A DNA stretch of 33,050 nt from Deltaproteobacteria bacterium (GTDB lineage: Bacteria; Desulfobacterota; Desulfomonilia; UBA1062), in assembly GCA_011046135.1 (NCBI GenBank), contig DSBG01000109.1:1-33050 (forward strand), given 5' to 3'. A program made the position numbers and the translations under genes. Numbering within the stretch: the stretch's first letter is position 1; every line of letters begins with the position of its first letter. Under the pieces are notes generated by a model that saw nothing but the letters and a program-made list of their open reading frames with translations, ran no database searches and was not told where the DNA came from. Below are positions 2 to 14,834 of the stretch, piece by piece.

Positions 2-1654
2 TATCCTGCACGTACCCTCGATGAGGCGATAAACGCAATCTGGATTACCATGGTGGGGGCGCACATCGAGAACACCAATGCAGGGCTCTCCCTCGGGAGG
101 CTGGATCAGTGGCTTCAGCCGTATTTCGCCTCTGACATGGCGAAGCTTGCCACAAAAGAAGAGCGTGAGGAATACATTAAGCGTGCCATCGAGTTCGTGG
201 GATGCTTCTTCTTCCGGTGTACCGATCATCTCCCCTGCATGCCCTACATCGCGACCATCTACTTCGGGGGAAGTTCGTCTGACCAGGCGATTACCCTGGG
301 AGGCCTGACACCGGAAGGAGAAGATGCGGTCAACGACATGACCTACATCTTCCTGAAGGTGACGGAGATGCTTTCGATCCGCGACCCCAACATGAATGCA
401 CGCTACCACCCCGACAAGAACAGTGACACGTATCTCAAGCGGCTCTGCGAGGTGAATCTCATAACCGCTGCGACGCCGTCCATGCACAACGACGCGGTCA
501 TCATGGAGTCCCTGAGTCAATTCGACTACGAAGAACAGGATCTTCGAGACTGGGCTGCGGTGGGCTGCGTGGAACCGACGATTGCCGGCAAGCATGCGGG
601 ACACACCAACTTCCACCTCATCAACATGGTGGCGGCCCTGGAGATGGCCCTCAACAACGGCAGACATCCCCTCATGCGGTGGAAGCTCGGGCCAGACACA
701 GGCGAGATAGAGCAGGGGGTGTTCACGACGTTTGAGCAGTTCTACGAGGCCTTTCTCGCCCAGTTCACGTTCCTGATCGACCAGTCGATCCTGCTCAACA
801 ACTGGTATGCAGAGGAGCACCAGTACGTGCGCCCCACGCCCTTCCTCTCCGCGCTTACTGACGGGTGCATCCGGAAGGGGTCCGATGCAACCAAGGGTGG
901 GGCCAAGTACAACAGCTCGGGTGCCGCGGTCATCGGGCTTGCGGATGTGACGGATTCACTCATGGTGATCAAGAAGCTCGTGTTCGATGAACAGAGGGTG
1001 ACCTTCGCCGATCTCAAGCGTGCGGTGGACACGGACTTCAGGAACGACCCCGTGCTCCACGCCCTGGTCACGAAAAAAGTTCCTTTCTTCGGCTCGGGGA
1101 GCGATGAGGCGGTGGAGATGGCCAACCGCATTACGAAGTTCACCCATGACTATTACACGGCCATCCCCCATTACCGCGGCGGAACGTATACCGTCGGGTT
1201 CTGGACCATGTCCCAGCACGTTGCCTTCGGGACCCTCACCGGGGCCCTGCCTTCCGGGAGGAGGGCGGGAAAGCCCTTTACTCCTGGTCTCACTCCGGAG
1301 CCGAACGCGTCTCGCAACCTTCTGGACAACATACGGGATGTCGCCCGCCTCGACCCCCACAACATCACCAACAACTTGGCCTTCAACGTGAAGATCGTGC
1401 CCTCGGCGCACGATTCGCACGAAAAAACGGTGCAGGACATGTTCTCCTACGTGAAGACCTACTTCACCCTGGGAGGGATGCAGATGCAGATGAACGTGGT
1501 GACCTCGGACACGCTTCGAGATGCCATGGCCTACCCGGAGAACTATCGCAACCTGATTGTGCGCATCTCCGGATACAATGCCTACTTCGTGACCCTGCAC
1601 AGGGACCTGCAGCTCGAACTCATCGAACGGGCAGAGTACGGCATGACACACTGA
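2..1654 (+). CDS. Glycyl radical enzyme (PFL-like), 5' end outside window
   Basis: The reading frame is open to the left edge, so the N-terminus is missing; about 550 codons are visible of a family that usually has 780-850. The motif VGCVEP places the thiyl-radical cysteine at codon 566-568, with a glutamate two residues later. The glycyl radical loop RISGYNAYF lies near the C-terminus, with the radical glycine at codon 1571-1573. Family knowledge: the Cys-x-Glu arrangement is typical of enzymes that eliminate water, amines or sulfite (diol dehydratases, choline lyase, hydroxyproline dehydratase, isethionate lyase), but arylacetate decarboxylases also have it, so the substrate is not assigned. 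The protein needs a radical SAM activase, which is not in the window and may lie upstream. An alcohol dehydrogenase follows after 94 bp, consistent with an aldehyde or alcohol intermediate (inference). Confidence 0.9.
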   Translation, partial: YPARTLDEAINAIWITMVGAHIENTNAGLSLGRLDQWLQPYFASDMAKLATKEEREEYIKRAIEFVGCFFFRCTDHLPCMPYIATIYFGGSSSDQAITLGGLTPEGEDAVNDMTYIFLKVTEMLSIRDPNMNARYHPDKNSDTYLKRLCEVNLITAATPSMHNDAVIMESLSQFDYEEQDLRDWAAVGCVEPTIAGKHAGHTNFHLINMVAALEMALNNGRHPLMRWKLGPDTGEIEQGVFTTFEQFYEAFLAQFTFLIDQSILLNNWYAEEHQYVRPTPFLSALTDGCIRKGSDATKGGAKYNSSGAAVIGLADVTDSLMVIKKLVFDEQRVTFADLKRAVDTDFRNDPVLHALVTKKVPFFGSGSDEAVEMANRITKFTHDYYTAIPHYRGGTYTVGFWTMSQHVAFGTLTGALPSGRRAGKPFTPGLTPEPNASRNLLDNIRDVARLDPHNITNNLAFNVKIVPSAHDSHEKTVQDMFSYVKTYFTLGGMQMQMNVVTSDTLRDAMAYPENYRNLIVRISGYNAYFVTLHRDLQLELIERAEYGMTH

Positions 1655-1748
1655 ACAGAATGTTTCGCGGGTGGTGCATATAAGGACCTGCTGGATCATC
1701 AGTGTCGCGGGAGGACACGAATACCCGGGCAGGGAGAAATGAGTCTCC

Positions 1749-3014
1749 ATGAATGAGAAGAGGGCCGGGATGATGGCAGTGATGTTCAACTACAGCATCC
1801 CCCGGATCGCACTGAAGAAGATCGGCCTCGGCAGTGATTTCTTTCTCGTGAAGTACAGCGATGCGTGGCCGGTTCCCAGAATCGTCCATCCTAAGCAGGT
1901 CGTGATGAGGACGCGTCTGGGCGGCATCTGCGCGTCAGATCTTCACCAGCTCACGGTGTCACTGTCTCTCTACGCGAGCATCATGGCGTCTCCGGTCAAC
2001 CCCGTACCCATGGGACACGAGGCCGTGGGCACGATCGAGGAGGTGGGGGCCGAGGTGACGAGACTTCGACCAGGTGACAGGGTAGTCTACAACCCCATAG
2101 GCAGGTGCTCATGCTACGGGTTCGATCCCTGTCCGAGCTGCAGGAACGGCAATTATCAGCACTGCTTCTGCCTTCTCGGCATCGGGGATGGTACCGAGCG
2201 CGAACAGGAGTATGGCGGCAGGTGCAAGTTTGGTGGGTTCGGGGGAGGGGCGTTCAGCGAGTATCTCCTCGGCCTCGAGCAGCAGTTCCACCTGGTACCC
2301 GAGCATGTGCCGGACGAAGTGGCGGTACTTGCAGAACCCTTCACCATTGCACTGCATGCGGTATCCCGCCACATGCCAAAGGAGACGGATACGGTTCTCG
2401 TAGTGGGGGCGGGCATCATCGGTCTTCTCACGATAAAGGCGTTGAGAGCCTTGGGTTCGCAGTGCAGGATACTGGCCATCGCACGATATCCTGTGCAGGC
2501 AGCTATGGCACGAAAGCTCGGGGCGACCGAGGTCATCACAGAGCGCGCTTCCAGGAAGCTCTACGACAGAATTGCCCGTGCGACTGGAGGGTCGCTCTTC
2601 ACCCCTCTTTTCAGCAAGCCCGTGCTGTATGGAAATCGGGGACCCGACATCATTTTCGACTGCGTGGGTTCAGAAGCCTCGGTGGATGACGATCTCAGGC
2701 TGTCCCGGAGCAATGGTAAGGTTGTGATCCTCGGACTGGATTTCAATATCACGAAACAGGTGGATTGGTCCGTAGCGATCTGGAAGGAGATCGACGTCAC
2801 TGGAACCCTGTTCTCAGGGAGGGAGGTCTTTGAAAACCGGAAGATCGATGCCTTCGACCTGGCCCTTGAACTCATGTCACGCGATGGGGAATCTTTCAGG
2901 GGGCTGGTCTCCCACACGTTTCCGGTTGATCGGTTCCGCGATGCGATCCGATGCATACGCTCAAAGGAGAAAAACAGTGCCATCAAGGTTGCTCTGGATT
3001 TCAGACGTGGCTGA
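1749..3014 (+). CDS. Zinc-dependent alcohol dehydrogenase (MDR family)
   Basis: This 421-residue medium-chain dehydrogenase has the catalytic zinc motif GGICASD (Cys61) and GHEAVG (His90-Glu91). A cysteine-rich structural zinc lobe spans about 120-141 (C120, C122, C128, C131, C139, C141); its first spacing is wider than the usual CxxCxxC pattern. The nucleotide-binding glycine motif is VVGAGIIG near 218-225. It should oxidise or reduce an alcohol/aldehyde pair with NAD(P) in the cytoplasm. The start at 1749 follows AGGGAG at 1731-1736; an internal ATG at 1770 would also give a complete enzyme. It lies directly downstream of the glycyl radical enzyme on the same strand, so the two probably work in one catabolic route (inference). 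Confidence 0.88.
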   Translation: MNEKRAGMMAVMFNYSIPRIALKKIGLGSDFFLVKYSDAWPVPRIVHPKQVVMRTRLGGICASDLHQLTVSLSLYASIMASPVNPVPMGHEAVGTIEEVGAEVTRLRPGDRVVYNPIGRCSCYGFDPCPSCRNGNYQHCFCLLGIGDGTEREQEYGGRCKFGGFGGGAFSEYLLGLEQQFHLVPEHVPDEVAVLAEPFTIALHAVSRHMPKETDTVLVVGAGIIGLLTIKALRALGSQCRILAIARYPVQAAMARKLGATEVITERASRKLYDRIARATGGSLFTPLFSKPVLYGNRGPDIIFDCVGSEASVDDDLRLSRSNGKVVILGLDFNITKQVDWSVAIWKEIDVTGTLFSGREVFENRKIDAFDLALELMSRDGESFRGLVSHTFPVDRFRDAIRCIRSKEKNSAIKVALDFRRG

Positions 3015-3257
3015 CCGTACGAATTCCAGGGATGTTTCGGCACTCACCCGGACGTACTCCGTCATCGACAGCCTGCTTCGGAATCCACGGGGAAGGATCT
3101 CCCATGCCGATCAAAGGATCATAAGGAGTCATAACAGGGATACGTCGAACGCGGGAGAGGTTCTTATGCGGACAGGTGCAGAACGTCCGGTGGTGATGAC
3201 ATATTTAAGGCAGAGGGTTTTCTGTGTCGGGAACGAATGTTCGTGCAGGGGGAGAGG

Positions 3258-4367
3258 ATGAAGATTCTCGTTCTCGGTGGTGCGGGTGACATGGCGAGAG
3301 ATGCCCTCGATGAACTCGACAGAGAAACGGGGGACCTGGCCATCACCATTGCCGACCTCAATCTGGACAAGGCGAGGCGGGAAGCGGCTGGCAGGGGAGA
3401 GCGGGTTACTGCCCAGGGTGTCGATATCGAAGACCATTCTCGGCTGATGGAGCTCATGAAGCAGCACGACATAACCTTGGGGTTTGCCGGGCCGTTCTAT
3501 TACTTCGAGAAGCGACTTGCTCGGGCTGCACTGGAGGCAGGGAGACCCTATGTCTCCATTGCCGACGACTACGAGGCCTACCTGGAGGTCATGACCCTCG
3601 AAGAAGAAGCCCGGCTCACCGGTGTTCACATCTTGACAGGGTGGGGAAATTCTCCAGGCATCACCCAGGTTCTGGCCCGCAAGGGGTACAACTCCATGGA
3701 AGAACCCAGGCGCATCAATGTGCACTGGGCTGCCGGCTCCAACGAGGCAGCAGGCCCTGCAAACCTTACGCACCTCTTCAATATCTTTCACGGCACCACG
3801 CTCCAGACAATCCGCGGCCGGGAAATCAGGGTGCCCACCGGCGGAGGCAGAAAGGTCGTGCGGTTTCCCTTCCCCCTGGGGGAGTTGCCCGTATACTACA
3901 CGGGGCATGCGGAAAGTGTCTCTATCCCCCGCAACCTGACCGGACTCCAGGAGGTAACCCTGCACGGCGGAGTCCAGCCCTCCTACATCCCGCTGATGAT
4001 CATGGTGATGGACAAAACAGGCCTGTTCAGCACCCACGACCGCAGAAAAAAGGCAGCGGAGTTCTTCTATAAAATCGAGAGGATCTTCGGAACGGGCGGG
4101 TTAGACAAGTCCGTGGGAAGGGTGGACGTGTATGGGTTCCACAGGGGAAAGACAGCACACCGTACCTACACGTACCTCGGTCACATTGGCCGGATTACCT
4201 CCGTTCCCTGTGTGGTGGCGGCTCTGTGGGAACTAGAGGGTGCATTCAGAGATATCCCGGGTGGAGTCTATGCCCCTGAAAGACTGCTCACCGACCCTGA
4301 TCCATTTCTGACAGAGATCATGCGAAGGGGCGTGGAAATCTTCTTCCACGAGGACGGCCTTGAGTGA
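3258..4367 (+). CDS. Saccharopine dehydrogenase-like NAD(P) oxidoreductase
   Basis: The protein (369 residues) opens with a Rossmann strand and glycine motif, MKILVLGGAGDMARDAL, followed by the pattern of the saccharopine dehydrogenase/homospermidine synthase fold (TITLGFAGPFYYFEKRLARA-type helix, then GWGNSPGITQVLA). The start was placed at ATG 3258 because a strong purine run (AGGGGGAGAGG) lies immediately before it and the Rossmann motif begins at once; an ATG at 3237 would add seven unconserved residues. Family members act on amino acids or imines, but many bacterial homologues have no known reaction, so none is assigned here. It follows the alcohol dehydrogenase after 243 bp on the same strand and may belong to the same pathway. 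Confidence 0.8.
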   Translation: MKILVLGGAGDMARDALDELDRETGDLAITIADLNLDKARREAAGRGERVTAQGVDIEDHSRLMELMKQHDITLGFAGPFYYFEKRLARAALEAGRPYVSIADDYEAYLEVMTLEEEARLTGVHILTGWGNSPGITQVLARKGYNSMEEPRRINVHWAAGSNEAAGPANLTHLFNIFHGTTLQTIRGREIRVPTGGGRKVVRFPFPLGELPVYYTGHAESVSIPRNLTGLQEVTLHGGVQPSYIPLMIMVMDKTGLFSTHDRRKKAAEFFYKIERIFGTGGLDKSVGRVDVYGFHRGKTAHRTYTYLGHIGRITSVPCVVAALWELEGAFRDIPGGVYAPERLLTDPDPFLTEIMRRGVEIFFHEDGLE

Positions 4368-4602
4368 AAAAACGCTCAGACACAGACGAATCTTTCCCGT
4401 GAACCGGAACACGTGAACCGGAGCCGAACCGTCCCTGGGACCGTAATCGTCCCGTACCCATCTCCTCCTTGGGAATGAACCGTTCAGAGTCGCCGATACA
4501 CCGGTGGCACGAGTACGGCATCAAGAATAGCTCTTCTCCCCAGTTTTCAGTTTCACTTCCGGGGGATCTCCTGATAAGAGGAATAGTCTAAGGATAGTCC
4601 TC

Positions 4603-5919
4603 ATGACGCAGGAGAAACAGACTGATCATCCCGGAGATTTGCCCGAAACAGCCCCCTATACTGCAGCGAAACAATGGCTGAGATTATTCCCTGCGCTCAT
4701 GGAACGGGACTTCAGAACACTGTGGCTTGGCATGATGCCGGGGATCCTCGCCATTCAGATGTATTTCTTCGCCAATGGCTACCTGGCCTTCGAGCTCACG
4801 GGAGCAGCCAAATCCATCGGGTACATCTCTCTGGGATTCGGCATTCCCATGCTCGTCTTTTCCCTGGTGGGGGGCATGGCGGCTGACCGTTATTCAAAAC
4901 GAGGGATTCTCCTGATCAGCCAGGCAACCATGGTTCTCTCGGCAGCGATCATGGCTGTCCTGATCGTAACTGAAACTATCAGAATCTGGAACATGGTGGT
5001 CCTTTCAGGCATCATGGGTACAGCCTTCACCTTTCACATGCCGGCCAGGCAGTCGTTCATTGCCGAGCTGATAAGCCCGGCCCGATTGGTCAATGCCATT
5101 GCCCTGAACAGCTCGGGATTGAATGCCTGTCGGGTCATCGGTCCTCCTTTGGCAGGATGGCTGATCAGCAAGCCCTGGGTGGGCATCGGCGGGGTGTACG
5201 CAACCATGGCTCTCCTGCTTGTGATTGTCGTGGTGAGTCTCTTCAGGATTCCCGACCGAGGAATTCATGCACACGCGAAAGACACCTCCGGAACCAGGGC
5301 GGTGCTTGACGGCCTTGGGTATATCCGGGGCAACCCTGTCCTGCTCGTCCTGTTGATACTGAGCATTGCCCCCATCATTTTAGGGATGCCGGTTCAGGCA
5401 CTGATGCCGGTTTTCGCCAAAAATGTATTCGGTGTGGGACCAAAGGGACTCGGGTTTCTGATGATGGCCAACGGCATAGGCGCCCTCATCGGGTCTCTTG
5501 TCGTTGCATCGATCCAACAGCTCAGGCGGCCCGGCATGGTGCAGCTGGTCCTCGGGGGGCTCTTTGGCGTGAGTCTGGCGATTTTTGCCTTTGGATATTC
5601 GTTTTCCCTCGCTCTTGTGATGATGGTGATCATCGGCATCGTTTCGTCCTCCTATCTCTCGCTCAACGCAACCCTGATCATGGATGCCACCGACAAACGC
5701 TACCACGGGCGTGTCATGAGTGTGTACATGTTCACCTTTTCAGCCCTTCCGTTTGGGAACATGATCATGAGTGTCTTTGCCGACGCCTTCAGTGCACCGG
5801 TGACCGTCGGTGTCGGGGGTCTGCTGCTGGCAGCGGTTGTCCTGCTTTTCGCCCTTTTCAGTCCTGCTTATAGAGGGTTGCAGTATGGCACGTCTTCAAC
5901 GATGGGTTCATCTCGTTGA
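4603..5919 (+). CDS. Major facilitator superfamily transporter
   Basis: This 438-residue inner-membrane protein has about twelve hydrophobic segments by eye. The MFS loop 2-3 signature appears as GGMAADRYSKRG. The pattern resembles the drug/siderophore exporter branch (DHA3 or EntS-like, MFS_3), though direction and substrate cannot be read from sequence. AAGGA about 8 bp upstream supports the ATG at 4603. It is the last plus-strand gene of the glycyl radical enzyme locus, separated by 235 bp without a gene, so it may have its own promoter. Transport of the locus's substrate or product is only a suggestion. Confidence 0.88.
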   Translation: MTQEKQTDHPGDLPETAPYTAAKQWLRLFPALMERDFRTLWLGMMPGILAIQMYFFANGYLAFELTGAAKSIGYISLGFGIPMLVFSLVGGMAADRYSKRGILLISQATMVLSAAIMAVLIVTETIRIWNMVVLSGIMGTAFTFHMPARQSFIAELISPARLVNAIALNSSGLNACRVIGPPLAGWLISKPWVGIGGVYATMALLLVIVVVSLFRIPDRGIHAHAKDTSGTRAVLDGLGYIRGNPVLLVLLILSIAPIILGMPVQALMPVFAKNVFGVGPKGLGFLMMANGIGALIGSLVVASIQQLRRPGMVQLVLGGLFGVSLAIFAFGYSFSLALVMMVIIGIVSSSYLSLNATLIMDATDKRYHGRVMSVYMFTFSALPFGNMIMSVFADAFSAPVTVGVGGLLLAAVVLLFALFSPAYRGLQYGTSSTMGSSR

Positions 5920-5954
5920 GGGATCCTGATCCCTGACCATTTCACGCAGTGAAA
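5919..5954. terminator. Two short inverted repeats between convergent genes
   Basis: AGGGATC-CT-GATCCCT (5919-5934) abuts the stop of the MFS gene, and TTTCAC-GCA-GTGAAA (5940-5954) follows. The next gene comes from the opposite strand, so these may help end transcription from both sides. Neither is followed by a clear T-run, so the call is weak. Confidence 0.3.
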
Positions 5955-6036
5955 CAGTGCCGCGACGTCCACAGATGCGCGTGCTCTGGTGGATGCTGCC
6001 AGAAGGAGGAGCATGCATCATGGAAAACGGTCAGTA

Positions 6037-7014
6037 TCAACCCGTTGCCTGTGAGAGTCGAATGACTTCTTCGTGGGGCCCCAGCATCCTGATGAACGTG
6101 CTGAGGAGATTATTGTCAAACTCGGTTATGGCCTCTGTCTTGATGATCTCGATGGCGTCGAAAGGCTTCATGGGCTTCTTGTAGGGCCTCTCAGATGTCA
6201 GTGCGTCGAAGATATCCGCAATGGCACAGATCCGGGCACAGGGATGGATGTCCGTCATGCCGAAGGGATACCCGCTCCCGTTGGGGCGTTCGTGATGCTG
6301 CATGGAGATATACGCAGCCTCATCAGTAAGGTGCCCTGTCTCCATGAGGATGGTGTAGCCGAATTCGGGATGCTTCTTCATGATCGCCCACTCATGATCG
6401 TCCAGGTTTCCCCGTTTTGAGAGAATGGATTTCGGTATCTTGCACTTTCCGATATCGTGGAGAAAGTACCCGTACGTCAGCCGTTCCAATTCCTCCATCC
6501 CTAGTGCACGGTCATTCGTGTAGAAATGGATGGCAAGAGCGGTGGCGAAGATGCCGACGTTGACACTGTGTGTGTAGGTGTTGAAATCATGCTCCGTAAT
6601 GGAGAAGAGGTCGTTCAGGAGAATTCTGTTCTTCATGATGTTTTTGAACATGGGTTTCAGGGTGTTTTTCAGCACTTCGATCTGATTGGAATTCGGGTCT
6701 TCAAAGGCCTTTCTGAGGGCATGCATGGACGACACGTAGAACGTAGCGGCCTTGACTTTTCCGGGTATGGTGGAGTCGTTGATGATCTTGTCAGAATTTT
6801 CATGAATGTATTCTTCGAAGGTGCCTGCATCAGTTCTCCGGACATAGATCCTGCTGATTCCGAATCGATGGAGCTCGAGGAGGTGATCCCGAGTGAACAC
6901 CCCGCCTTTCTCGAGAAAGGGTACGAGCATGTCCTGGTGCTTTATGAACAGGTCCACGACGACCTTCTCATAGAGAACGATGACATCTATGGGAACAGGC
7001 CTGAATACGTTCAT
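6037..7014 (-). CDS. HD-GYP domain protein, probable c-di-GMP phosphodiesterase
   Basis: The C-terminal half of this 325-residue protein is an HD-GYP domain. HDIGK (His186-Asp187) and the HHERPNGSGYP block (240-250) are intact, so metal binding and cyclic-di-GMP hydrolysis are expected. The N-terminal 130 residues show no receiver or membrane segment that I recognise and may be a sensory or scaffolding region. The ATG at 7014 lacks its own ribosome site at normal spacing. Instead AAGGAG (7036-7041) precedes a six-codon ORF whose TGA overlaps the ATG, suggesting translational coupling. The radical SAM gene ends 82 bp upstream on the same strand, so the two may be co-transcribed. Confidence 0.9.
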   Translation of the reverse strand: MNVFRPVPIDVIVLYEKVVVDLFIKHQDMLVPFLEKGGVFTRDHLLELHRFGISRIYVRRTDAGTFEEYIHENSDKIINDSTIPGKVKAATFYVSSMHALRKAFEDPNSNQIEVLKNTLKPMFKNIMKNRILLNDLFSITEHDFNTYTHSVNVGIFATALAIHFYTNDRALGMEELERLTYGYFLHDIGKCKIPKSILSKRGNLDDHEWAIMKKHPEFGYTILMETGHLTDEAAYISMQHHERPNGSGYPFGMTDIHPCARICAIADIFDALTSERPYKKPMKPFDAIEIIKTEAITEFDNNLLSTFIRMLGPHEEVIRLSQATG

Positions 7015-7031
7015 GCAGGGCTTTTCGGCAT
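7011..7031 (-). other. Six-codon minicistron overlapping the HD-GYP start
   Basis: ATG at 7031-7029 opens the hexapeptide frame MPKSPA, ending in TGA at 7013-7011, which overlaps the HD-GYP ATG as ATGA. AAGGAG lies 4 bp before this ATG but about 21 bp before the HD-GYP ATG. No in-frame upstream start exists for the HD-GYP gene before a stop. Coupled initiation is inferred. Confidence 0.4.
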
Positions 7032-7096
7032 TCGTCTCCTTGGAATTTACAGTACGTGAGGGAATCTGAGTTCAGTAACGTCATACAGGCACATCG

Positions 7097-8617
7097 TTAT
7101 CTCTTCGCAAACAATGGTGCATGGTTCGAGGTAAAGAACGGAGGGTCCTGTCGTACAATGCGCGCAATGGATCTCTGCCGCTTGAATTCCTTGTCCAGGA
7201 ACTGGCGGACTCTGTTTCTGTCCCATCCCGCAGGGTGGACAAACCCCTGGTACAGGGAAAGGTCTCCCTCCGAGAAATCGAAGGTCGTGAGGTTCGCGGC
7301 ATCGTGGCTGTATCTGGGCAGATTGAAGATCGAGACGTTAAGAAAATCGATGGCTTCCTGATGCCTGCTCACGAAATCGAGGGTTTTCTGTGCGCCCACG
7401 CAGTCCTCAGGTGTTCCGAACAGGATATACACATACGTGGCTATTCCTGCACGTGTGAGGCTTTTCAGGACATGAGCAGCTGTTTCGAGCCTGATCCCCT
7501 TGCCCAGTTTGTCAAGTACGCCCTGGTCTCCTGATTCCAGCCCGAGCTGAAGCATCACGCACCCGGATCGTTTCAGGGAGGAACAGAGGTCGGGATCTGC
7601 AAGCTCAGGTATAATCTTCGCGAATCCGTACCAGGGAGAAGGGAGTTCCTCCCGGGCAAGGGATGCGATGATCGATGGACTCAGTGCATTGTCACAGAAG
7701 TGCACGAGTGCCGGTGAATGCTTCTTTAGGACGTGACGCACCAGAGAAACGACAGCACCGCCGGGAACAGGGCAATACCGTGTGTTCTCCGACTTTTCCG
7801 GGCAGAAGGAACATCTGCCCCAGTAACAGCCCGTTGACGTGCTCAGGGGGATGATGCTTCCCGGGGAAAGGTAGTCACGGGTTTGAAAGCCTCCATATTC
7901 GGGCAGAGATATCCGGGAAGGGGTCTCGCCCCTGAAGAGAGAGAGAAGGCGGTCCTCTCCCGGGCCGTCGACAATTTCGTCCACCAGGCCGGCAAAGGTA
8001 TTCGTTTTCATGGGGCCCCTCATCCACGAGGTAACCAGCCCTCCGCCCAGAAGGATCTTCGTTCCTGGGCTGAGGATTTTTGCCTGACCGATCATGGCAA
8101 AGGTTGTCAGTACCTGACTGAGGTAGTTCAGGGAAAAACCCAGGTATCCGGGGGCGTGTTCTTCCAGGAGAGCCTGCAGCCGCTTGAGAAAGTAGGGATA
8201 GAACACATTGTCTTCCGGGTGCTCTGCCGCGTGCAGCAGATCAGCGCTCTTCACCGGCGAACGTCTCATGTGGGTGAAGTTGTTGAGGCTGACATGAACC
8301 CCGTGGCTTTTTGATCTCACCTCCAGGATCCTGTTGAGCTCGGTGACCGCTTTGATGTACGCCCCCATATTCCCGAAGGCCGTTCCATCCCTGAGGGACC
8401 GGAGATTTTTCTCCACGTGGCGTGCACTGCGTCTGGTCCAGGTGTCCTGGGCATGGAGGGGTTCTCCGGAGGTGATCAGGTGGAGAAGGCATTCAAGGTT
8501 TGCGTCAATCACCAGGTGCTCGACACCATGGTCCTTAAGGATCCCCGAGAGTTTTGCGAGCCCGGCCGGCGGTTCGCAGGGACGCGATACAGGGGCAGTA
8601 ATGAGCACGATGTCCAT
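7097..8617 (-). CDS. Radical SAM protein with B12-binding-like N-terminus
   Basis: This 506-residue protein opens with MDIVLITAPVSRPCEPPAGL, typical of the B12-binding-domain class in which a Rossmann-like domain precedes the radical SAM barrel. The [4Fe-4S] motif is CYWGRCSFC (Cys264, 269, 272), CX4CX2C rather than CX3CX2C, a variant I associate with some B12-type radical SAM branches. Downstream segments (LQLGLESGDQGVLDKLGKG and YVYILFGTPED) fit the Elp3/MiaB-like barrel. The reaction is unknown. AAAGG five bases before the ATG supports the start. Upstream lies a 169-bp gap holding a long inverted repeat that could fold in the leader RNA; downstream is the HD-GYP gene. Confidence 0.85.
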   Translation of the reverse strand: MDIVLITAPVSRPCEPPAGLAKLSGILKDHGVEHLVIDANLECLLHLITSGEPLHAQDTWTRRSARHVEKNLRSLRDGTAFGNMGAYIKAVTELNRILEVRSKSHGVHVSLNNFTHMRRSPVKSADLLHAAEHPEDNVFYPYFLKRLQALLEEHAPGYLGFSLNYLSQVLTTFAMIGQAKILSPGTKILLGGGLVTSWMRGPMKTNTFAGLVDEIVDGPGEDRLLSLFRGETPSRISLPEYGGFQTRDYLSPGSIIPLSTSTGCYWGRCSFCPEKSENTRYCPVPGGAVVSLVRHVLKKHSPALVHFCDNALSPSIIASLAREELPSPWYGFAKIIPELADPDLCSSLKRSGCVMLQLGLESGDQGVLDKLGKGIRLETAAHVLKSLTRAGIATYVYILFGTPEDCVGAQKTLDFVSRHQEAIDFLNVSIFNLPRYSHDAANLTTFDFSEGDLSLYQGFVHPAGWDRNRVRQFLDKEFKRQRSIARIVRQDPPFFTSNHAPLFAKR

Positions 8618-8654
8618 GCTTGCCTTTGAAGCAGGTTTCAGGTGGTGCTGTCAA

Positions 8655-8736
8655 TCACCCAGCCCTCGCATTAACGATCCTCGGTTTTACGCGGGAGCAC
8701 CCCTTGTTTCCCAGTAAAGATTCTCCGGCTGGGTGA
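8655..8736 (-). ncRNA. Candidate structured 5' leader RNA upstream of the radical SAM gene
   Basis: Ten bases, TCACCCAGCC, pair perfectly with GGCTGGGTGA about 62 nt later (arms 8655-8664 and 8727-8736), enclosing further pairings. Read on the minus strand these are GGGA with TCCC, and GCGTAA with TTA-A-TGC (one bulge), the latter capped by CGA-GGA-TCG. This is a three-way-junction-like fold about 38 nt before the radical SAM ATG. It matches no riboswitch class that I recognise. A small mobile palindromic element is the alternative. Confidence 0.4.
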
Positions 8737-8786
8737 GATCTTGGCCTGCGCTCCTGTACCGCACCTGCGGTGCCTGGCCTGAGCTA

Positions 8787-9581
8787 TCAGCCGTATGCCC
8801 GTGCGGCGCAGACATCGTCGAGGGACCTCTGCTGGATCACCTCTCCGTGCCTGCTGATGACGATTTCAGAAAGGGGTACGGTCACGCCTGAACGGTGCAG
8901 TGCATCGAGGGCCCCATGGACAAAGGCGCTGCAGCACGGCACCTCCATGCGCACCACGGTGAGAGAACGCGGGCGTGCCGTGGAAAGGATATCTGCCAGG
9001 CGCGTGATGTGTGCCTCGAGGTTGTCCAGTTTGGGGCATCCGATGGCAACGGTTCTTCCCCTGAGAAAATCTGCGTGGAGGTTGGCGGAGGCAACGGCTA
9101 CACAGTCTGCAAGCAGCAGGAGGTCCGAATTCTTCAGATAGTTCGCGTTCGGGCTCAAGAGCTGGAGCTTCACCGGCCAGTGGGTGAGCTCCGAGGGGGT
9201 GGACTCTGTGGTGATTTCCCGGGTTTCTTCCCCGGGACAGGTCTCCTTCAGGAACATTGCAGCCGACGAGGAACACCCGCAGGCCAGAATAGGTGCTGGT
9301 TCGTGTGCATGGAGGTGGGGCTTATGGGCTGTATGGCGACTCTCGATGTGCGCGTGTACCGCCGCTTCGCTGAATTCCTCTGCCTCCCGTTCTATGATGG
9401 TGAGCGCCCCCTCGGGGCAGGTTCCGATGCACGCACCGATCCCGTCGCAGAGAATCTCGCCTTTGATCCGTGCCTTGCCATTCACGAGTTCCAGCGCTCC
9501 CTCGGCACATGCGAGGATACACTGACCGCACCCCGTGCACCTTTCTTCGTCGATCTCGATGATCTTCCTGATCTGCTTCAT
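8787..9581 (-). CDS. 4Fe-4S dicluster ferredoxin-like protein with Cys-rich C-terminus
   Basis: The first 60 residues of this 264-residue protein hold two ferredoxin motifs. The first is complete, CTGCGQCILAC (Cys15, 18, 21, 25). The second, CDGIGACIGTCP (Cys45, 51, 55), lacks the usual second cysteine, with Ile48 in its place. The remaining 200 residues contain further cysteine pairs (ACGCSSS, GCPKLDN, VPCCSAF) and resemble a class of Fe-S proteins with an uncharacterised C-terminal domain. An electron-transfer role is likely; the partner is unknown. AAGGA precedes the ATG. The gene is divergent from a Crp/Fnr regulator across 125 bp that contains a TTGAC-type palindrome, which suggests redox or nitrosative control (inference). 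Confidence 0.82.
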   Translation of the reverse strand: MKQIRKIIEIDEERCTGCGQCILACAEGALELVNGKARIKGEILCDGIGACIGTCPEGALTIIEREAEEFSEAAVHAHIESRHTAHKPHLHAHEPAPILACGCSSSAAMFLKETCPGEETREITTESTPSELTHWPVKLQLLSPNANYLKNSDLLLLADCVAVASANLHADFLRGRTVAIGCPKLDNLEAHITRLADILSTARPRSLTVVRMEVPCCSAFVHGALDALHRSGVTVPLSEIVISRHGEVIQQRSLDDVCAARAYG

Positions 9582-9606
9582 CGCGTCCTTCCTTCCCGCA
9601 TTTTTA

Positions 9607-9620
9607 TTCTACATATAGAA
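9607..9620. promoter_or_regulatory. AT-rich palindrome TTCTA-CATA-TAGAA
   Basis: A perfect 5-bp inverted repeat with a 4-bp centre lies 26 bp before the ferredoxin-like gene. On the minus strand it contains TATATG at 9617-9612, which could be a -10 element. A start about 9605 would put the TTGAC palindrome at roughly -41.5, the usual site for an Fnr-type activator. Confidence 0.35.
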
Positions 9621-9638
9621 GAAGCGGCGGGGTCAGGC

Positions 9639-9654
9639 CTTGACCCAGGTCAAG
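9639..9654. promoter_or_regulatory. Fnr/HcpR-type operator palindrome
   Basis: CTTGACC-CA-GGTCAAG is a perfect inverted repeat with 7-bp arms, midway between the divergent ferredoxin-like and Crp/Fnr genes. Its TTGA half-sites are those read by Fnr-class helices bearing an E..SR signature, which the adjacent regulator has. It is therefore a likely autoregulatory and target operator. Confidence 0.6.
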
Positions 9655-9706
9655 ATGAGATAATTTTCACGTTGCATGATTTCCGGATCAACCGTAGAGT
9701 CTTGTT

Positions 9707-10375
9707 ATGGAACTGCGTGACCATGTACGGCAGGCAGACCTCTTCAGCGGTCTGTCTGAAGACATCATTTCCCGGCTTGCATCCCGTGCACGGGTCATCT
9801 CTTGTGCACAGGGAGACCTGCTCTTCACCGAGGGACAGGAGGGGAGCGCTTTTTTCCTCCTGATCGAGGGTGCTCTCAGACTGTTCAAAACCTCTCCCGG
9901 CGGTCAGGAGATCTCGCTCAAGCTGGTGAAGCCCGGTGAGATCTTTGCAGAGGTCATCCTGTTCGAGAACCCCAGCTACCCGGTCAATGCAATGGCCATC
10001 ACCGGGGCGCGCATGATGTCATTCGAACGAAGCCACGTTCTCGGCCTTCTCGATGAGAAGAAGTTCCGTAACGAGTTCATTGTAAATCTCATGAGGAAAC
10101 AGCGCTACCTGGCCGAGCGGATCCTCTACCTCACGACCTATGACGTGGAAGAGCGGTTTTTCAGATTTCTGATCGAGAGGTACGGTCACGCCGGAAGGTA
10201 CACGGTCGACATGGCAAAAAAAGATATTGCATCCGCTATCGGAACGATTCCCGAAACATTCTCTCGCCTCATCAAGCGCCTGAAGAAACAGGGGATGCTT
10301 CAGTGGGAGGGAAACTCTCTCACCATAGAGAAGGACTACCTCAATCTTTTCAACGACGAGTCTGGGAATCCCTAG
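9707..10375 (+). CDS. Crp/Fnr family transcriptional regulator
   Basis: This 222-residue protein has a cyclic-nucleotide-type beta-barrel (about 10-120), a dimer helix and a C-terminal winged helix-turn-helix. The recognition helix reads IPETFSRLIKRL, with Glu183, Ser186 and Arg187 matching the E..SR signature by which Fnr contacts TTGA half-sites. Only one cysteine is present (Cys33), so it cannot bind an Fnr-type 4Fe-4S cluster by cysteines; heme or another ligand would be needed, as in Dnr- or HcpR-like proteins. The palindrome 52 bp upstream fits its predicted specificity. It probably controls itself and the divergent ferredoxin-like gene. Confidence 0.88.
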   Translation: MELRDHVRQADLFSGLSEDIISRLASRARVISCAQGDLLFTEGQEGSAFFLLIEGALRLFKTSPGGQEISLKLVKPGEIFAEVILFENPSYPVNAMAITGARMMSFERSHVLGLLDEKKFRNEFIVNLMRKQRYLAERILYLTTYDVEERFFRFLIERYGHAGRYTVDMAKKDIASAIGTIPETFSRLIKRLKKQGMLQWEGNSLTIEKDYLNLFNDESGNP

Positions 10376-10484
10376 CTGGCCTGGAGTGGAGGCGAGACAC
10401 TGAATAAGCGCACCGGTGTGCACAAAGTTCACGGGAGAGAATTTTTCGAACCGCCTGATCGTGATCCGGTTTAACGAGAGGCAG

Positions 10485-11405
10485 TTACGAACGCTTTGCC
10501 ATCACCCTGAAGAGGGCATATCCCCAGAGCTGGGAGACGATCATGCCGGCAAACATGAGGGCGCACCCGGAGAGTTCCCTTGGGGTCAGGATCTCATCGA
10601 GCATGATCCAACCCCCGAGCGCTGCGAACACGGCCTCGAGACTCAGAAGGATTGCGGCGTGTGCCGGGTGTGCATTCTTCTGTGCCACCACCTGGAGGGT
10701 GTAGGCTATTCCAACGGACAGTACACCACCGTAGAGGATGGGGATGCTCGCCTGGACCAGTGCCGGCCCTGCGGTGGCCTCGAAGATAAGTGAAGTAATG
10801 AGGCTCAGCAGTGAGCAGATCGCATACTGGATGAAGGCGAGTTGGAGTGAATCGAACCTGGGCGAGAGCCAGCCGATAATGATCACGTGGCCGGCCCAGA
10901 AAAAGGCGCCGATGAACACGAGAAGATCACCGAATGATATGGTAAACTGCTCCGTGACACTGAGCAGGTACATGCCGAAGGCTGCAAGGAGAACACCAAT
11001 CCATGTTCCTGCAGAGGTTCTCTGCCCGAGAAACAGGCCCAAGATCGGAACGATGACCACGTAGAGGCCGGTAATGAACCCTGCGTTGCCTGCGGTGGTA
11101 TGGACGATGCCCGTCTGCTGGAGGGACGATCCGGCGAAGAGGACAAGCCCGGCAATAAAGCCACCACCCAGGAGGCCCCCCCATCCTGGATTCTCTGCAG
11201 ACTTCTGTGATGATCCGTGGATCGTCCCGTTTCTGAGAATGATGGGCAGGAGCACCATGCACCCCAGGGCGAAGCGGATTCCGTTGAAGATGAAGGGTCC
11301 GACATACTCCATCCCGACGCGCTGTGCCACGAACGCAAATCCCCAGATCGTTGCCGTGGTGAGGAGCAGGGTATCAGATTTCAGCGTTCTCGTGTTCAGG
11401 GACAT
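10485..11405 (-). CDS. EamA/DMT family transporter
   Basis: The protein (306 residues) has about ten hydrophobic helices in two EamA repeats. The first begins at TIWGFAFVAQRVGMEYVGPF; the second contains the conserved glycine-rich stretch SLEAVFAALGGWIMLDE. It lies in the inner membrane and moves a small metabolite, often an amino acid or nucleoside in this superfamily; the substrate cannot be read from sequence. It converges with the Crp/Fnr gene (109 bp between stops) and diverges from the rhomboid gene. It has no operon partner in the window. Confidence 0.88.
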   Translation of the reverse strand: MSLNTRTLKSDTLLLTTATIWGFAFVAQRVGMEYVGPFIFNGIRFALGCMVLLPIILRNGTIHGSSQKSAENPGWGGLLGGGFIAGLVLFAGSSLQQTGIVHTTAGNAGFITGLYVVIVPILGLFLGQRTSAGTWIGVLLAAFGMYLLSVTEQFTISFGDLLVFIGAFFWAGHVIIIGWLSPRFDSLQLAFIQYAICSLLSLITSLIFEATAGPALVQASIPILYGGVLSVGIAYTLQVVAQKNAHPAHAAILLSLEAVFAALGGWIMLDEILTPRELSGCALMFAGMIVSQLWGYALFRVMAKRS

Positions 11406-11726
11406 CGATCGTTTCCACCAGGTCGGTGTTCATCATGTGCTCGATCCTGCCGGGATGAATTTTTCTATACAAGCCTCCGAGGTTCTCCGCAGAGATCTCC
11501 CTGCAGGCTCGTGAGGTGCGACATACCTGTTCTCATTGCCGGAGTCAAGAAAGGAAACAGGGCTGTTTCTTCGTAGGGACAGGATTACCGGTTCATTTCC
11601 CCTCCGGTGTGTGGTAGTCTGTGTCGAGGCAGATCATGTTGACGTATACCTCCATACAGGTGGTTCAGTGAGACAACACGGGATTGAACAGAGTGATCTT
11701 GAATAAGCACGAGCGGGTGAACATCC
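11406..11726. other. Divergent intergenic region, EamA/rhomboid
   Basis: This 321-bp gap contains no convincing gene. It must hold start signals for both flanking genes, but I see no strong -35/-10 pair. The only clear element is the palindrome at 11554-11569. Confidence 0.5.
11554..11569. promoter_or_regulatory. Operator-like palindrome GAAACAG-GG-CTGTTTC
   Basis: Seven-bp perfect arms are separated by two bases, about 150 bp upstream of both divergent genes (EamA and rhomboid). The short centre suits a dimeric repressor site better than an RNA hairpin. No cognate regulator is identified. Confidence 0.3.
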
Positions 11727-12491
11727 ATGTTTCCCTTGCGTGACGAGAACCCGACCCTGCATACCTCCTTTGCAACCTTTCTCATCATCGCACTCAATGC
11801 CGCGGCGTGGATCTTTCTCCAGGGGTTCGGCATGAACCCGGAGCTTGCCATTTCGGTCTGCCGCTTCGGCCTGATCCCCGGTGAACTCCTCGGCATTGTG
11901 CCTCCCGGCACACAGGTTCCCATGGGCAGAGAGATTTCCTGCGTGATCGATGGGAGTGCCAGCTGGCTCACGGTCTTCAGCTCCATGTTCATGCACGGAG
12001 GGTGGCTCCACCTCATCGGAAATATGTGGTTTCTCTACCTGTTCGGCGACAACGTGGAGGATGCCATGGGCCCGGTGCGGTTCGTGGTGTTTTACCTCAT
12101 CTGCGGCGTTGCCGCGGTTGCTGCCCAGATGATTTCAAACCCTGCGAGCCCCATACCCATGGTCGGTGCCTCAGGGGCCATCGGGGGCGTCATGGGTGCC
12201 TATGTCCTGCTCTATCCCCGCGCACCGGTCCATGTTCTGGTTTTTTTCGGGTTCTTCATCACGCGCATCGTGGTTCCCGCATACTTCATGCTCGGCTTCT
12301 GGTTTCTCCTCCAGGTCATCGAGGGAATCTTCACCCTTGGAGCTCCCGGCGGCGGCGTGGCGTTCTGGGCTCATATCGGGGGTTTCCTCGCGGGCGTCGT
12401 GCTGGTCAGGGAGTTCTGTGTGGCGGGCAGGCTGAAGGGCTGCAGACAGAAGCGCGGATCCACAAAGGGGATTATCCGCAGGATCAGGTAG
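11727..12491 (+). CDS. Rhomboid family intramembrane serine protease
   Basis: The sequence (254 residues) shows the full catalytic dyad, GASGAIGG with Ser149 and AHIGGF with His216, on predicted membrane helices. Also present is the family block FMHGGWLHLIGNMWFLYLFG (89-108). About six or seven hydrophobic segments are visible, and a loop of about 40 residues follows the first helix. It cleaves membrane-protein substrates within the bilayer; bacterial substrates are rarely known. The C-terminal tail is short and basic (KGCRQKRGSTKGIIRRIR). It is probably transcribed alone, because 382 bp separate it from the next gene, which has its own promoter. Confidence 0.92.
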   Translation: MFPLRDENPTLHTSFATFLIIALNAAAWIFLQGFGMNPELAISVCRFGLIPGELLGIVPPGTQVPMGREISCVIDGSASWLTVFSSMFMHGGWLHLIGNMWFLYLFGDNVEDAMGPVRFVVFYLICGVAAVAAQMISNPASPIPMVGASGAIGGVMGAYVLLYPRAPVHVLVFFGFFITRIVVPAYFMLGFWFLLQVIEGIFTLGAPGGGVAFWAHIGGFLAGVVLVREFCVAGRLKGCRQKRGSTKGIIRRIR

Positions 12492-12678
12492 CTTCCTTTG
12501 AACAACGCTTTGCCAGCACATCTGACACCGGGAGGTCCACGATCTGCCTGAAGGAGCGCCGTTGCAGGGTTTTCTTCCCTTGAACCTTTGGATACGACAT
12601 CACCAGATTCAGAAACGCTTCCCCATTCCGTTCACCCGTGTAAAGACAAGGGGGAGAAACGGGAGAGAATCGGAAAGA

Positions 12679-12726
12679 GGTTTCCTAGTGAACCCCGCAC
12701 CTGATGAGCGGAGAACTCAGGAAACT
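12679..12726 (+). other. 48-nt potential RNA hairpin
   Basis: GTTTCCT (12680-12686) pairs with AGGAAAC (12719-12725). Inside, AGT pairs with ACT and CCGC with GCGG. The element lies in the 382-bp gap before pckG, upstream of the predicted pckG promoter. No T-run follows, so it is not an ordinary terminator. It might be an RNA end-protecting structure for the rhomboid transcript or a small RNA element. Confidence 0.3.
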
Positions 12727-12810
12727 ACATGGTGTTTTGCGTCAATGCTTACCGGGTGTGTCCTGAAAAAACCTAAAAAAGAAGATTCTCCATCAGGGTG
12801 AAAGGAACTC

Positions 12811-12839
12811 TTGAAAAAGGGTTTAGGCTTCTGTATAGT
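12811..12839 (+). promoter_or_regulatory. Predicted sigma-70 promoter of pckG
   Basis: TTGAAA (12811-12816), a 17-bp spacer and TATAGT (12834-12839) form a near-consensus promoter. Transcription would begin near 12846, about 28 bp before the pckG ATG at 12874. The TTG of the -35 box opens a longer reading frame for pckG, but it would lie upstream of this transcript. Confidence 0.65.
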
Positions 12840-12873
12840 GTTTGCCTACAAAACAGCGAAGAGGAGCAGCCCC

Positions 12874-14664
12874 ATGAATGGAGTTCCCAAACACGAAAGA
12901 CTCATTGCCTGGGTTCAGGAAATGGCAGATCGGTGCCAGCCTGATCAGATCTACTGGTGTGACGGCAGCAAAGAGGAATATGACCGTTTGATGGCCATGA
13001 TGGTCACGAGCGGGAGCGCTATTCCTCTGAAGACGCGTCCTAACAGTTTCCTCTTCCGCTCGCATCCGAGCGACGTGGCCCGTGTGGAAGACCGGACGTA
13101 CATCAGCACGCAGAAGCCAGACGATGCCGGGCCCACGAACAACTGGATCGACCCGGGTGAGCTCAGGGAGATCATGAAAAAACTCTATGATGGCTGCATG
13201 AAGGGACGCACCATGTACGTGATTCCCTTTTCCATGGGGCCTATCGGGTCTCCCATCGCCAAGATCGGCATCGAGATCACCGACAGTCCCTACGTGGTAT
13301 GCAACATGCACATCATGACCCGCGTGGGCACCAGGGTGCTCGAGGTCCTGGGAACCGAGGGAGAATTCATCCCCTGCATGCATTCCGTTGGGGCGCCCCT
13401 TGAACCCGGCGACAAGGATGAAGCGTGGCCATGCGCGCCCATGGAGAAGAAGTACATCAGCCACTTCCCCGAAGAAAATCTGATCTGGTCCTTTGGTTCC
13501 GGATACGGAGGAAACGCTCTGCTCGGAAAGAAGTGCCTTGCGCTTCGCATCGCTTCTGCCATGGCACACCGGGAGGGGTGGATGGCAGAGCACATGCTGA
13601 TCCTTCGCTTCACGAGCCCAGGGGGCAAGCGCTACCACATCGCGGCAGCCTTTCCTTCGGCCTGCGGCAAGACAAACCTGGCCATGCTCCAGCCCACCGT
13701 TGAGGGTTGGACCTGTGAAACCATCGGAGATGATATCGCCTGGATGAAGATCGGTCCTGACGGAAGGCTCTATGCCATCAACCCCGAGGCCGGTTTCTTC
13801 GGCGTCGCCCCGGGAACGTCCTACGATTCCAACCCCATGGCAATGGATTCACTGCACGAGAACATCATCTTCACCAACTGCGCGCTCACCGACGACGGGG
13901 ATGTGTGGTGGGAAGACATGGATGGAGACCCGCCGACCCATGCCATCGACTGGAAAGGCAGAGACTGGACACCGGAAAGCAAAGACCCGGGAGCACATCC
14001 GAACGCACGCTTCACAGCTCCTGCCTCACAGTGTCCCTGCATCTGTGAAGACTGGGAGAAGCCCGAGGGCGTTCCCATCGACATCTTCATCTTTGGCGGG
14101 AGGAGGACAGGGGTGGTTCCCCTGGTCACCGAGGCATTCAACTGGGATCACGGGGTTTTCCTCGGAGCCACGGCATCATCAGAAACAACGGCAGCCAACA
14201 TCGGAGACATCGGAACGCTCAGGCGCGACTCCTTTGCCATGAAACCCTTCTGCGGCTACAACATGGGCGATTACTTCCAGCACTGGCTCACCATGGGTGA
14301 CGCCCTGGGAGACAAGGCCCCCCGGATCTTCTACGTGAACTGGTTCCGAAGGGACAGCGACGGGAAGTTTCTCTGGCCGGGATTCGGCGAGAATTCCAGG
14401 GTGCTCAAGTGGATGTGCGAGCGAGTCGACGGCAAGTCCGGTGCATATGAGACCCCCATCGGGCTTCTTCCGGAGGACGGCGCCCTAGACCTGAAGGGGT
14501 TGAATGTCTCCCCTGGGATCATGCAGGAGCTGCTCAAAATCGATGAGGAGGCCTGGAAGGCGGAGATCCCCACCATCGAGAAGCACTTCTCGCAGTTTGG
14601 AGATCGTCTGCCACAGCGTTTGAAGGAGCAGCTGGACGAGCTCAGGAAACGCTTCGGTCTTTAG
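12874..14664 (+). CDS. pckG: Phosphoenolpyruvate carboxykinase (GTP)
   Basis: This enzyme interconverts oxaloacetate plus GTP with phosphoenolpyruvate, CO2 and GDP, linking the TCA intermediates to gluconeogenesis. The 596-residue length is normal for the GTP class. The nucleotide P-loop FPSACGKTN (260-268) includes the reactive cysteine Cys264 and Lys266. The conserved stretches [24 protein letters not shown] and FYVNWFRRD are all present. The ATG at 12874 was chosen because GAGGAG lies 7 bp upstream and the predicted promoter covers the alternative TTG at 12811. In an anaerobe it may run in either direction. Two 2-hydroxyacyl-CoA dehydratase-type genes follow after 170 bp with their own promoter candidate. 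Confidence 0.96.
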
Positions 14665-14782
14665 TACGGGTTCTTTCCTGGAATAAAACGGGTTCCGGAA
14701 ACTGGCCGGACAGTGTGGTCAGCACCGGGGCCCGCCCGTCTATCAGTTTTTTCACAGCCATTGACAAATCCCCTCGAAAACG

Positions 14783-14812
14783 TTGACGGTACCTTCGCTG
14801 CTGCTGTAGTAT
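14783..14812 (+). promoter_or_regulatory. Predicted promoter of the dehydratase pair
   Basis: TTGACG (14783-14788), an 18-bp spacer and TAGTAT (14807-14812) lie just before the first subunit gene. The start would be near 14819, 16 bp before the ATG. A second TTGACA at 14761 has no matching -10. Confidence 0.45.
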
Positions 14813-14834
14813 TGTCAGACAGGACGACGAAGGT

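Follow-up and report, generated by a model that had tools for sequence, protein, structure and literature searches.

Gene content of the locus

The window analysed here is the entire contig C23 (33,050 bp) of genome G000, a deltaproteobacterium. It begins inside a gene for a glycyl radical enzyme (GRE) of the Cys-x-Glu (CxE) type which, judging from sequence comparisons and predicted folds, very probably belongs to a clade of GREs that have a partner of the sterol-carrier-protein-2 (SCP2) fold. All four genes announced by the original prediction, a note made from the sequence of the window (a CxE GRE, a zinc dehydrogenase, a saccharopine dehydrogenase-like enzyme and a protein of the major facilitator superfamily, MFS), are present on the + strand with Pfam support (Table 1) and are separated by intergenic gaps of 94, 222 and 235 bp. 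The reading frame of the GRE is open at the first base of the contig and its 5' end is cut off; the remainder, which is intact, amounts to only the C-terminal ~55% of the full protein. Its domains, its thiyl-radical cysteine within an intact CxE motif and its intact radical glycine loop place it, by sequence, in the GRE (PFL-like) superfamily. No GRE activase was detected among the eight window proteins scanned against Pfam and NCBIfam (positions 2–10372).

Table 1. Features at the start of the window
Feature	Position	Strand	Basis
CxE GRE, C-terminal 550 aa of a ~1000-aa protein	2..1654	+	Pfam PFL-like (E 7.6e-115), Gly_radical (E 1.4e-23)
Codon of the thiyl-radical cysteine, motif GCVEP	566..568	+	Aligned with Cys433 of glycerol dehydratase 1r8w
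Codon of the catalytic glutamate of the CxE motif	572..574	+	Aligned with Glu435 of 1r8w
Codon of the glycyl radical, loop RISGYNAYF	1571..1573	+	Aligned with Gly763 of 1r8w
Zinc-dependent (GroES-like) alcohol/polyol-type dehydrogenase, 421 aa	1749..3014	+	Pfam ADH_N (E 3.2e-20), ADH_zinc_N (E 1.5e-20)
NAD(P)-binding oxidoreductase, saccharopine-dehydrogenase-type N-terminus, 376 aa	3237..4367	+	Pfam Sacchrp_dh_NADP (E 1.1e-13); no NCBIfam match
MFS transporter, exporter-like, 438 aa	4603..5919	+	Pfam MFS_1 (E 2.7e-37), MFS_3 (E 1.8e-33)

Phylogenetic position and active site

A full-length relative, L041, which is 88% identical to the window GRE over the part present in the window, stood in for it in NCBIfam scoring. 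It scores 372 against the trans-4-hydroxyproline dehydratase HypD (NF043068, cut-off 1100), 352.9 against the choline trimethylamine-lyase CutC (TIGR04394, cut-off 1050) and 360.5 and 351.6 against the sulfopropanediol dehydratases (NF048011 and NF048009, cut-off 1000). No NCBIfam match to isethionate sulfite-lyase is listed for L041, and the structures of this enzyme match at lower Z scores (33.3 and 32.8). A maximum-likelihood tree of 48 rows was built on the part of the protein carried by the window, leaving out CutC (too short) and isethionate lyase. It contains a 33-row clade (support 100/100) made of 23 enzymes with a fused N-terminal domain (100/100) and a sister group of 10 domain-less enzymes (98/93). 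This clade spans at least six phyla and lies apart from the glycerol and propanediol dehydratases, HypD, PFL2 of Archaeoglobus fulgidus and eight other GREs of Desulfatibacillum alkenivorans. The view that the GRE falls outside the named families is thus borne out for those tested, both by the widely missed cut-offs and by the separate clade.

All 33 members of the clade, fused and sister alike, read C-V-E. Comparison of the active site with known structures, which the original prediction had recommended, indicates that Cys433, Glu435 and Gly763 of glycerol dehydratase are kept in the window GRE, whereas its diol-binding residues His281, Ser282, Tyr339, Asp447 and Tyr640 are aligned with Ala, Gly, Asp, Asn and Trp, respectively. 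The propanediol dehydratase 9rco retains His281, Ser282, Asp447 and Tyr640. The histidine aligned with His164 of glycerol dehydratase is invariant in the 16 full-length sequences. Since the catalytic Cys, Glu and Gly are kept and the diol-binding residues are changed, the window GRE would combine the catalytic machinery of an eliminase with a different pocket.

The N-terminal domain

The glycerol dehydratase chain 1r8w has 787 aa, whereas nearly all full-length relatives are 970–1068 aa long and carry an N-terminal extension of ~190 aa (residues 1–187) ahead of a GRE core that covers residues ~188–1011. When the best 80 of the 345 relatives found in named genomes were kept, the domain was carried by all 80 loci (alignments start at query residue 48 or earlier). 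It was folded separately from 79 sequences (pLDDT 84.9), the VIA table of the full-length model leaving residues 1–187 uncovered. In a Foldseek search with this model, the top 12 rows consist entirely of UbiJ-SCP2 or (putative) SCP2 proteins, with E values from 3.1e-6. In VIA-align, the domain matches the SCP2-like domain of an alkylsulfatase with a Z score of 14.0 (2.1 Å over 104 residues) and a human SCP2-like protein with a Z score of 13.1, further SCP2 proteins following from there downwards. Pfam SCP2 (PF02036) recognizes 19 of the 79 domains at E<=0.01 (best 1.2e-5). In its predicted structure, the N-terminal domain, which is the central feature of these enzymes and is not contained in the window, therefore has the SCP2 fold.

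Fused and separate forms of the SCP2-type module

A profile of the family was searched against 395 genomes of the phylum and gave 54 match rows in 42 genomes. In 34 of these GRE rows the match begins no later than profile position 17, the domain being fused; another 16 begin at positions 160–206 (domain-less sister enzymes, with frames of 775–911 aa), and four are partial. In all 12 domain-less loci searched, the sister GRE is followed by a separate SCP2-like gene of 139–186 aa, which in most cases immediately precedes the activase gene. The profile of these 12 stand-alone genes matches the fused domain over 111 columns with 98.9% probability (E 1.2e-17); three of them were submitted to Pfam SCP2 (cut-off 21.3 bits) and gave 21.3 bits (L158), 19 bits and no match.

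When the stand-alone profile was searched over the same 395 genomes, 55 rows were obtained, namely 19 stand-alone genes and 36 rows of weaker score, 29 of these falling within the frame of a GRE row. A stand-alone gene sits beside each of the 16 domain-less GRE rows, including five that had not supplied the profile (the other 11 had). The GRE was found in 42 genomes and the domain in 42, and 39 of the 45 genomes with either have both (Fisher p ~1e-46, genome kinship not being corrected for). Taken as a whole, these sequence data identify the SCP2-type domain as one half of a split/fusion pair, fused to the GRE in the clade of the window and encoded separately in the sister clade, for instance by L164:9530–9970. 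This split/fusion relationship, together with the co-occurrence in the 395 genomes, is the best evidence for a functional partnership between the SCP2 part and the GRE.

Some other genes and loci were noticed in the course of these searches. In sister loci (L162–L168), domain-less GREs often neighbour a DUF6765 protein (PF20551, E 3e-109), which also gives a faint match to zinc-dependent phospholipase C (E 0.02), and a ~800-aa protein without Pfam family. A sequence search of the PDB up to E 1 gave no relative of either, and no paper naming DUF6765 was found in a literature search that mostly did not cover subscription papers. D. alkenivorans has a second, divergent SCP2-GRE of 988 aa (L153:9295–12258), beside which no activase or short-chain dehydrogenase/reductase (SDR) gene is evident.

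GRE genes and activase in the genome of the window

The original prediction suggested obtaining the sequence upstream of the window. The N-terminal half of the GRE is most likely found on another contig of this genome, C8, which stops inside a 571-aa GRE gene (L007:12322–14034). The last 367 bases of C8 and the first 367 of the window are identical at 356 positions (97%), without gaps and exactly end to end, and 121 of the 122 residues are the same at the protein level. Members of the clade in this genome are one complete gene on C91 (998 aa, 75% identical to the window GRE over the part in the window) and two halves, the C-terminal one in the window and the N-terminal one on C8. The two halves are most likely one gene split by strain variation in the assembly.

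The activase, also expected upstream, is found elsewhere, as a homologue on contig C20 that is 53% identical to the activase of L041. It lies between genes for an aldehyde ferredoxin oxidoreductase (AFOR) and an acyl-CoA ligase, without adjoining GRE (L177, G000:C20, 4705–12088). Relatives have TetR, GRE and activase genes at this place, and here the block persists minus the GRE. It also includes a ferredoxin with the AFOR, and a glycerol-type FGGY kinase and an MlaE-like gene adjoin it.

A GRE of a second type is encoded on contig C13 (L010, G000:C13:26000–42629, positions 6740–15341, - strand), with the motif ACMSP devoid of the CxE glutamate. It sits with an activase, a methylmalonyl-CoA mutase, a B12-binding subunit and MeaB, and looks like an alkylsuccinate synthase locus, i.e. 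that of an anaerobic hydrocarbon degrader.

Gene neighbourhoods of the clade

Neighbourhoods (genes within 6 kb) were compared in 91 loci, corresponding to the 80 named loci minus L138 plus 12 others, after 11 duplicates had been dropped; 57 of them have 2.5 kb on both sides of the GRE. The GRE has an activase gene nearby in 57 of the 91 loci and a TetR regulator in 41. SDR-type dehydrogenases occur in 23 loci (classical 14, extended 11, fused 4), AFOR in nine and an acyl-CoA-ligase cluster also in nine. The zinc alcohol dehydrogenase (Zn-ADH) cluster of the window was found in three (the window, L061 and L042), and the saccharopine-like and MFS proteins belong to clusters of fewer than three loci (they were singletons in the first 24). 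These frequencies do not support the gene set of the window as a pathway, the possibility raised by the original prediction, and by their distribution the MFS and saccharopine-like genes are local and not part of a conserved pathway. An anaerobic catabolic route of unassigned substrate still stands in general terms, although the particular gene set of the window does not define it. The MFS protein, described as a carrier, is indeed an MFS protein; it is nearest to exporters (the H+ antiporter family, EntS and Tet(V), all below NCBIfam cut-offs) rather than to an uptake carrier.

The dehydrogenases, AFOR and acyl-CoA ligase near the GRE handle alcohols, aldehydes and fatty acids, as would suit a carbonyl product, but their occurrence is patchy. 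In L086 and L128, two AFOR loci outside the syntenic block that the other seven share, AFOR is encoded downstream of the GRE on the same strand, and zinc-dependent dehydrogenases are found on both flanks of the GRE in L174. A locus from Chloroflexi (L119:7528–18198) encodes in a row an SCP2-GRE, its activase, two alpha/beta hydrolases, a glycerol-type FGGY kinase and a GlpD-like protein.

Other readings of these neighbours were tried and set aside. A glycerolipid operon in L119 is only suggestive, being a single locus with gaps of ~270–540 bp. A sphingoid-base or sterol substrate was considered on account of the SDR neighbours. One of them matches the ketosphinganine reductase TSC10 (8jat, E 6.6e-23), although its scores with beta-hydroxybutyrate and ketoacyl reductases are better; the extended SDR is similar to OleD, HpnA and SdmB, with scores far under each cut-off. 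Neither match gives decisive support. OleD-like and AMP-binding genes, as in OleC/OleD-type olefin synthesis, do occur, the thiolase partner not having been sought.

Farther along the window lie a B12-binding-type radical SAM protein (506 aa, 7097–8617, - strand), below all curated cut-offs, and a ferredoxin-domain protein (264 aa, 8787–9581, - strand) whose gene is divergent from that of a Crp/Fnr-type regulator (9707–10375, + strand).

Proposed reaction and alternatives

The favoured explanation, with a probability of about one half, is that these GREs are eliminases equipped with an SCP2-type module for a hydrophobic, lipid-like substrate from which they would release a carbonyl product. 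Of its parts, eliminase chemistry is likely and a lipid-like substrate somewhat less so, whereas an alkylglycerol or a long-chain diol as the particular substrate is a tentative proposal. The reaction can be pictured as follows: the activase, encoded at another locus (C20) in the genome of the window, would install the radical on the glycine, and the resulting cysteine thiyl radical would abstract a hydrogen from a carbon bearing a hydroxyl group. By protonating it, the glutamate of the CxE motif would then help an adjacent group (OH, OR, amine or phosphate) to leave, which is how diol dehydratases and choline lyase work. The hydrophobic tail of the amphipathic substrate would be bound by the SCP2 module and the substrate fed into the barrel, a role that the SCP2 domain of alkylsulfatases may have as well. 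The product, either a long-chain aldehyde or ketone or else a fatty alcohol together with a small carbonyl compound, might pass through Zn-ADH/SDR or AFOR to an acyl-CoA ligase and beta-oxidation. In a speculative extension, a lipid-type substrate, for example a long-chain 1,2-diol or a 1-O-alkylglycerol (from ether lipids), would be broken by the lipid-carrier GRE in a widespread anaerobic pathway, the carbonyl being oxidized by ADH, SDR or AFOR and then activated to acyl-CoA.

Several observations weigh against this interpretation. The SCP2 signal is weak at the sequence level, as 60 of the 79 domains have no Pfam match at E<=0.01 and the domain profile, searched against PDB sequences up to E 1, matches just three SCP2 chains (E 0.22–0.25); the stand-alone profile of the sister clade retrieves no SCP2 chain from the PDB sequences, its best rows being FtsH (E 0.014). 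The SCP2 fold can also serve other ends, as does UbiJ in quinone biosynthesis. At the thresholds used, three genomes have the GRE without a domain match and three the domain without the GRE. The catabolic neighbours are patchy, 68 of the 91 loci having no SDR-type gene and 82 no AFOR, while seven of the nine AFOR loci represent one syntenic block; besides, the sequence flanking the GRE is shorter than 2.5 kb on at least one side in 34 of the 91 loci. The join between C8 and the window is itself deduced, and the 3% divergence could mean two copies, one of them recent. Finally, all of these analyses deal with sequences and predicted folds.

A possible, though less probable, explanation is that the role of the SCP2-like domain is structural or regulatory (dimerization, membrane or activase docking, or radical protection) and that the substrate of the GRE is small and soluble, as for other CxE eliminases. 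Other GREs do bear extras that do not bind substrate, such as the beta and gamma subunits of benzylsuccinate synthase, the small subunit of 4-hydroxyphenylacetate decarboxylase and the N-terminal part of CutC. The GRE core is nearest in fold to diol dehydratases and CutC (Z ~36–38.6), and L174 has transketolase-like halves (read from their first residues, without family search). However, the diol-binding residues are changed, the domain is closest in fold to lipid carriers and alkylsulfatase domains, and SDR, AFOR and long-chain acyl-CoA ligase neighbours better suit a fatty product. It is very unlikely that the GRE is just a conventional enzyme for glycerol/1,2-diols, choline or hydroxyproline, set in a variant cluster: it shares their fold and catalytic Cys, Glu and Gly, but lies far under all equivalog cut-offs, has five diol-dehydratase residues changed and falls in a separate, fully supported clade.

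Lipids might instead be the product, the GRE catalysing a step in making or remodelling ether or other unusual membrane lipids. TetR regulators and SDRs would suit such remodelling too, and the clade includes D. alkenivorans (L100), for which mono- to tetra-alkyl ether cardiolipins are reported (PMC11150832). This proposal is nevertheless unlikely, as AFOR and acyl-CoA ligase neighbours indicate breakdown and the clade was not found, at the threshold used, in 353 of the 395 genomes, which makes it an accessory trait. Least probable, and already disfavoured, is an enzyme that activates hydrocarbons by fumarate addition, like the alkyl/benzylsuccinate synthases. Some hosts, D. alkenivorans for one, degrade hydrocarbons, and on C13 the genome of the window encodes such a GRE next to methylmalonyl-CoA mutase genes. 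Yet the clade has Cys-x-Glu, whereas L148, L149 and L010, which from motif and neighbours we take to be alkyl/benzylsuccinate synthases, read ACMSP without the glutamate and lie in a distant clade.

The superfamily and the mechanism are known, while the partner domain, the clade and probably the substrate class are new. To our knowledge, all substrates of the CxE glycyl radical eliminases characterized so far are small and soluble. The SCP2-GRE clade is present in about one tenth of the sampled genomes of the phylum (42 of 395) and in at least five other phyla, and as it travels with a module of lipid-carrier type, radical chemistry on lipids by anaerobes is suggested. The setting would be anoxic sediments and sludge, in which the breakdown of fats and membrane lipids has to do without oxygen. 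Alkylglycerol monooxygenase (AGMO) requires O2; if the reading is true, the SCP2-GRE would be its oxygen-independent counterpart, and the anaerobic route would be new. AGMO is described as the only known alkylglycerol-degrading enzyme (PMC7911779). The cultured host D. alkenivorans DSM 16219, whose GRE gene (L100:7992–10997) has an activase gene beside it, makes the reading testable.

Comparison with known systems

No description of an SCP2-bearing GRE was found in a literature search, which is weak evidence given its partial coverage. The limonene GRE is a fumarate-adding enzyme (PMC12583861), PMC13101534 concerns other enzymes, and many abundant gut GREs lack an assigned function (PMC11574389).

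Among characterized enzymes, the glycerol and 1,2-propanediol dehydratases (1r8w, 5i2g, 9rco) have the same barrel (VIA Z 37.2–38.6 over ~760 residues, 26–28% identity) and share the Cys-x-Glu motif and the glycine loop, whereas SCP2-GREs add the ~190-aa extension and lack the diol-binding residues. CutC also has this fold (Z ~36–37) and the CxE eliminase residues, but its own N-terminal extension is not known to be SCP2. PFL2 of A. fulgidus (2f3o) is a CxE GRE with Asn at the Tyr339 position, as in some clade members, but it is devoid of the N-terminal domain and lies outside the SCP2-GRE clade. On the side of the domain, the SCP2 fold is common to the GRE N-terminus, the alkylsulfatases SdsA1, SdsAP and Pisa1, and SCP2, MFE-2 and UbiJ. 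In SdsAP (PMC5426288), an SCP2 module is attached to an enzyme for alkyl substrates, an arrangement like that of the SCP2-GREs, the catalytic part being a metallo-beta-lactamase fold in the alkylsulfatases and a glycyl radical barrel in the SCP2-GREs.

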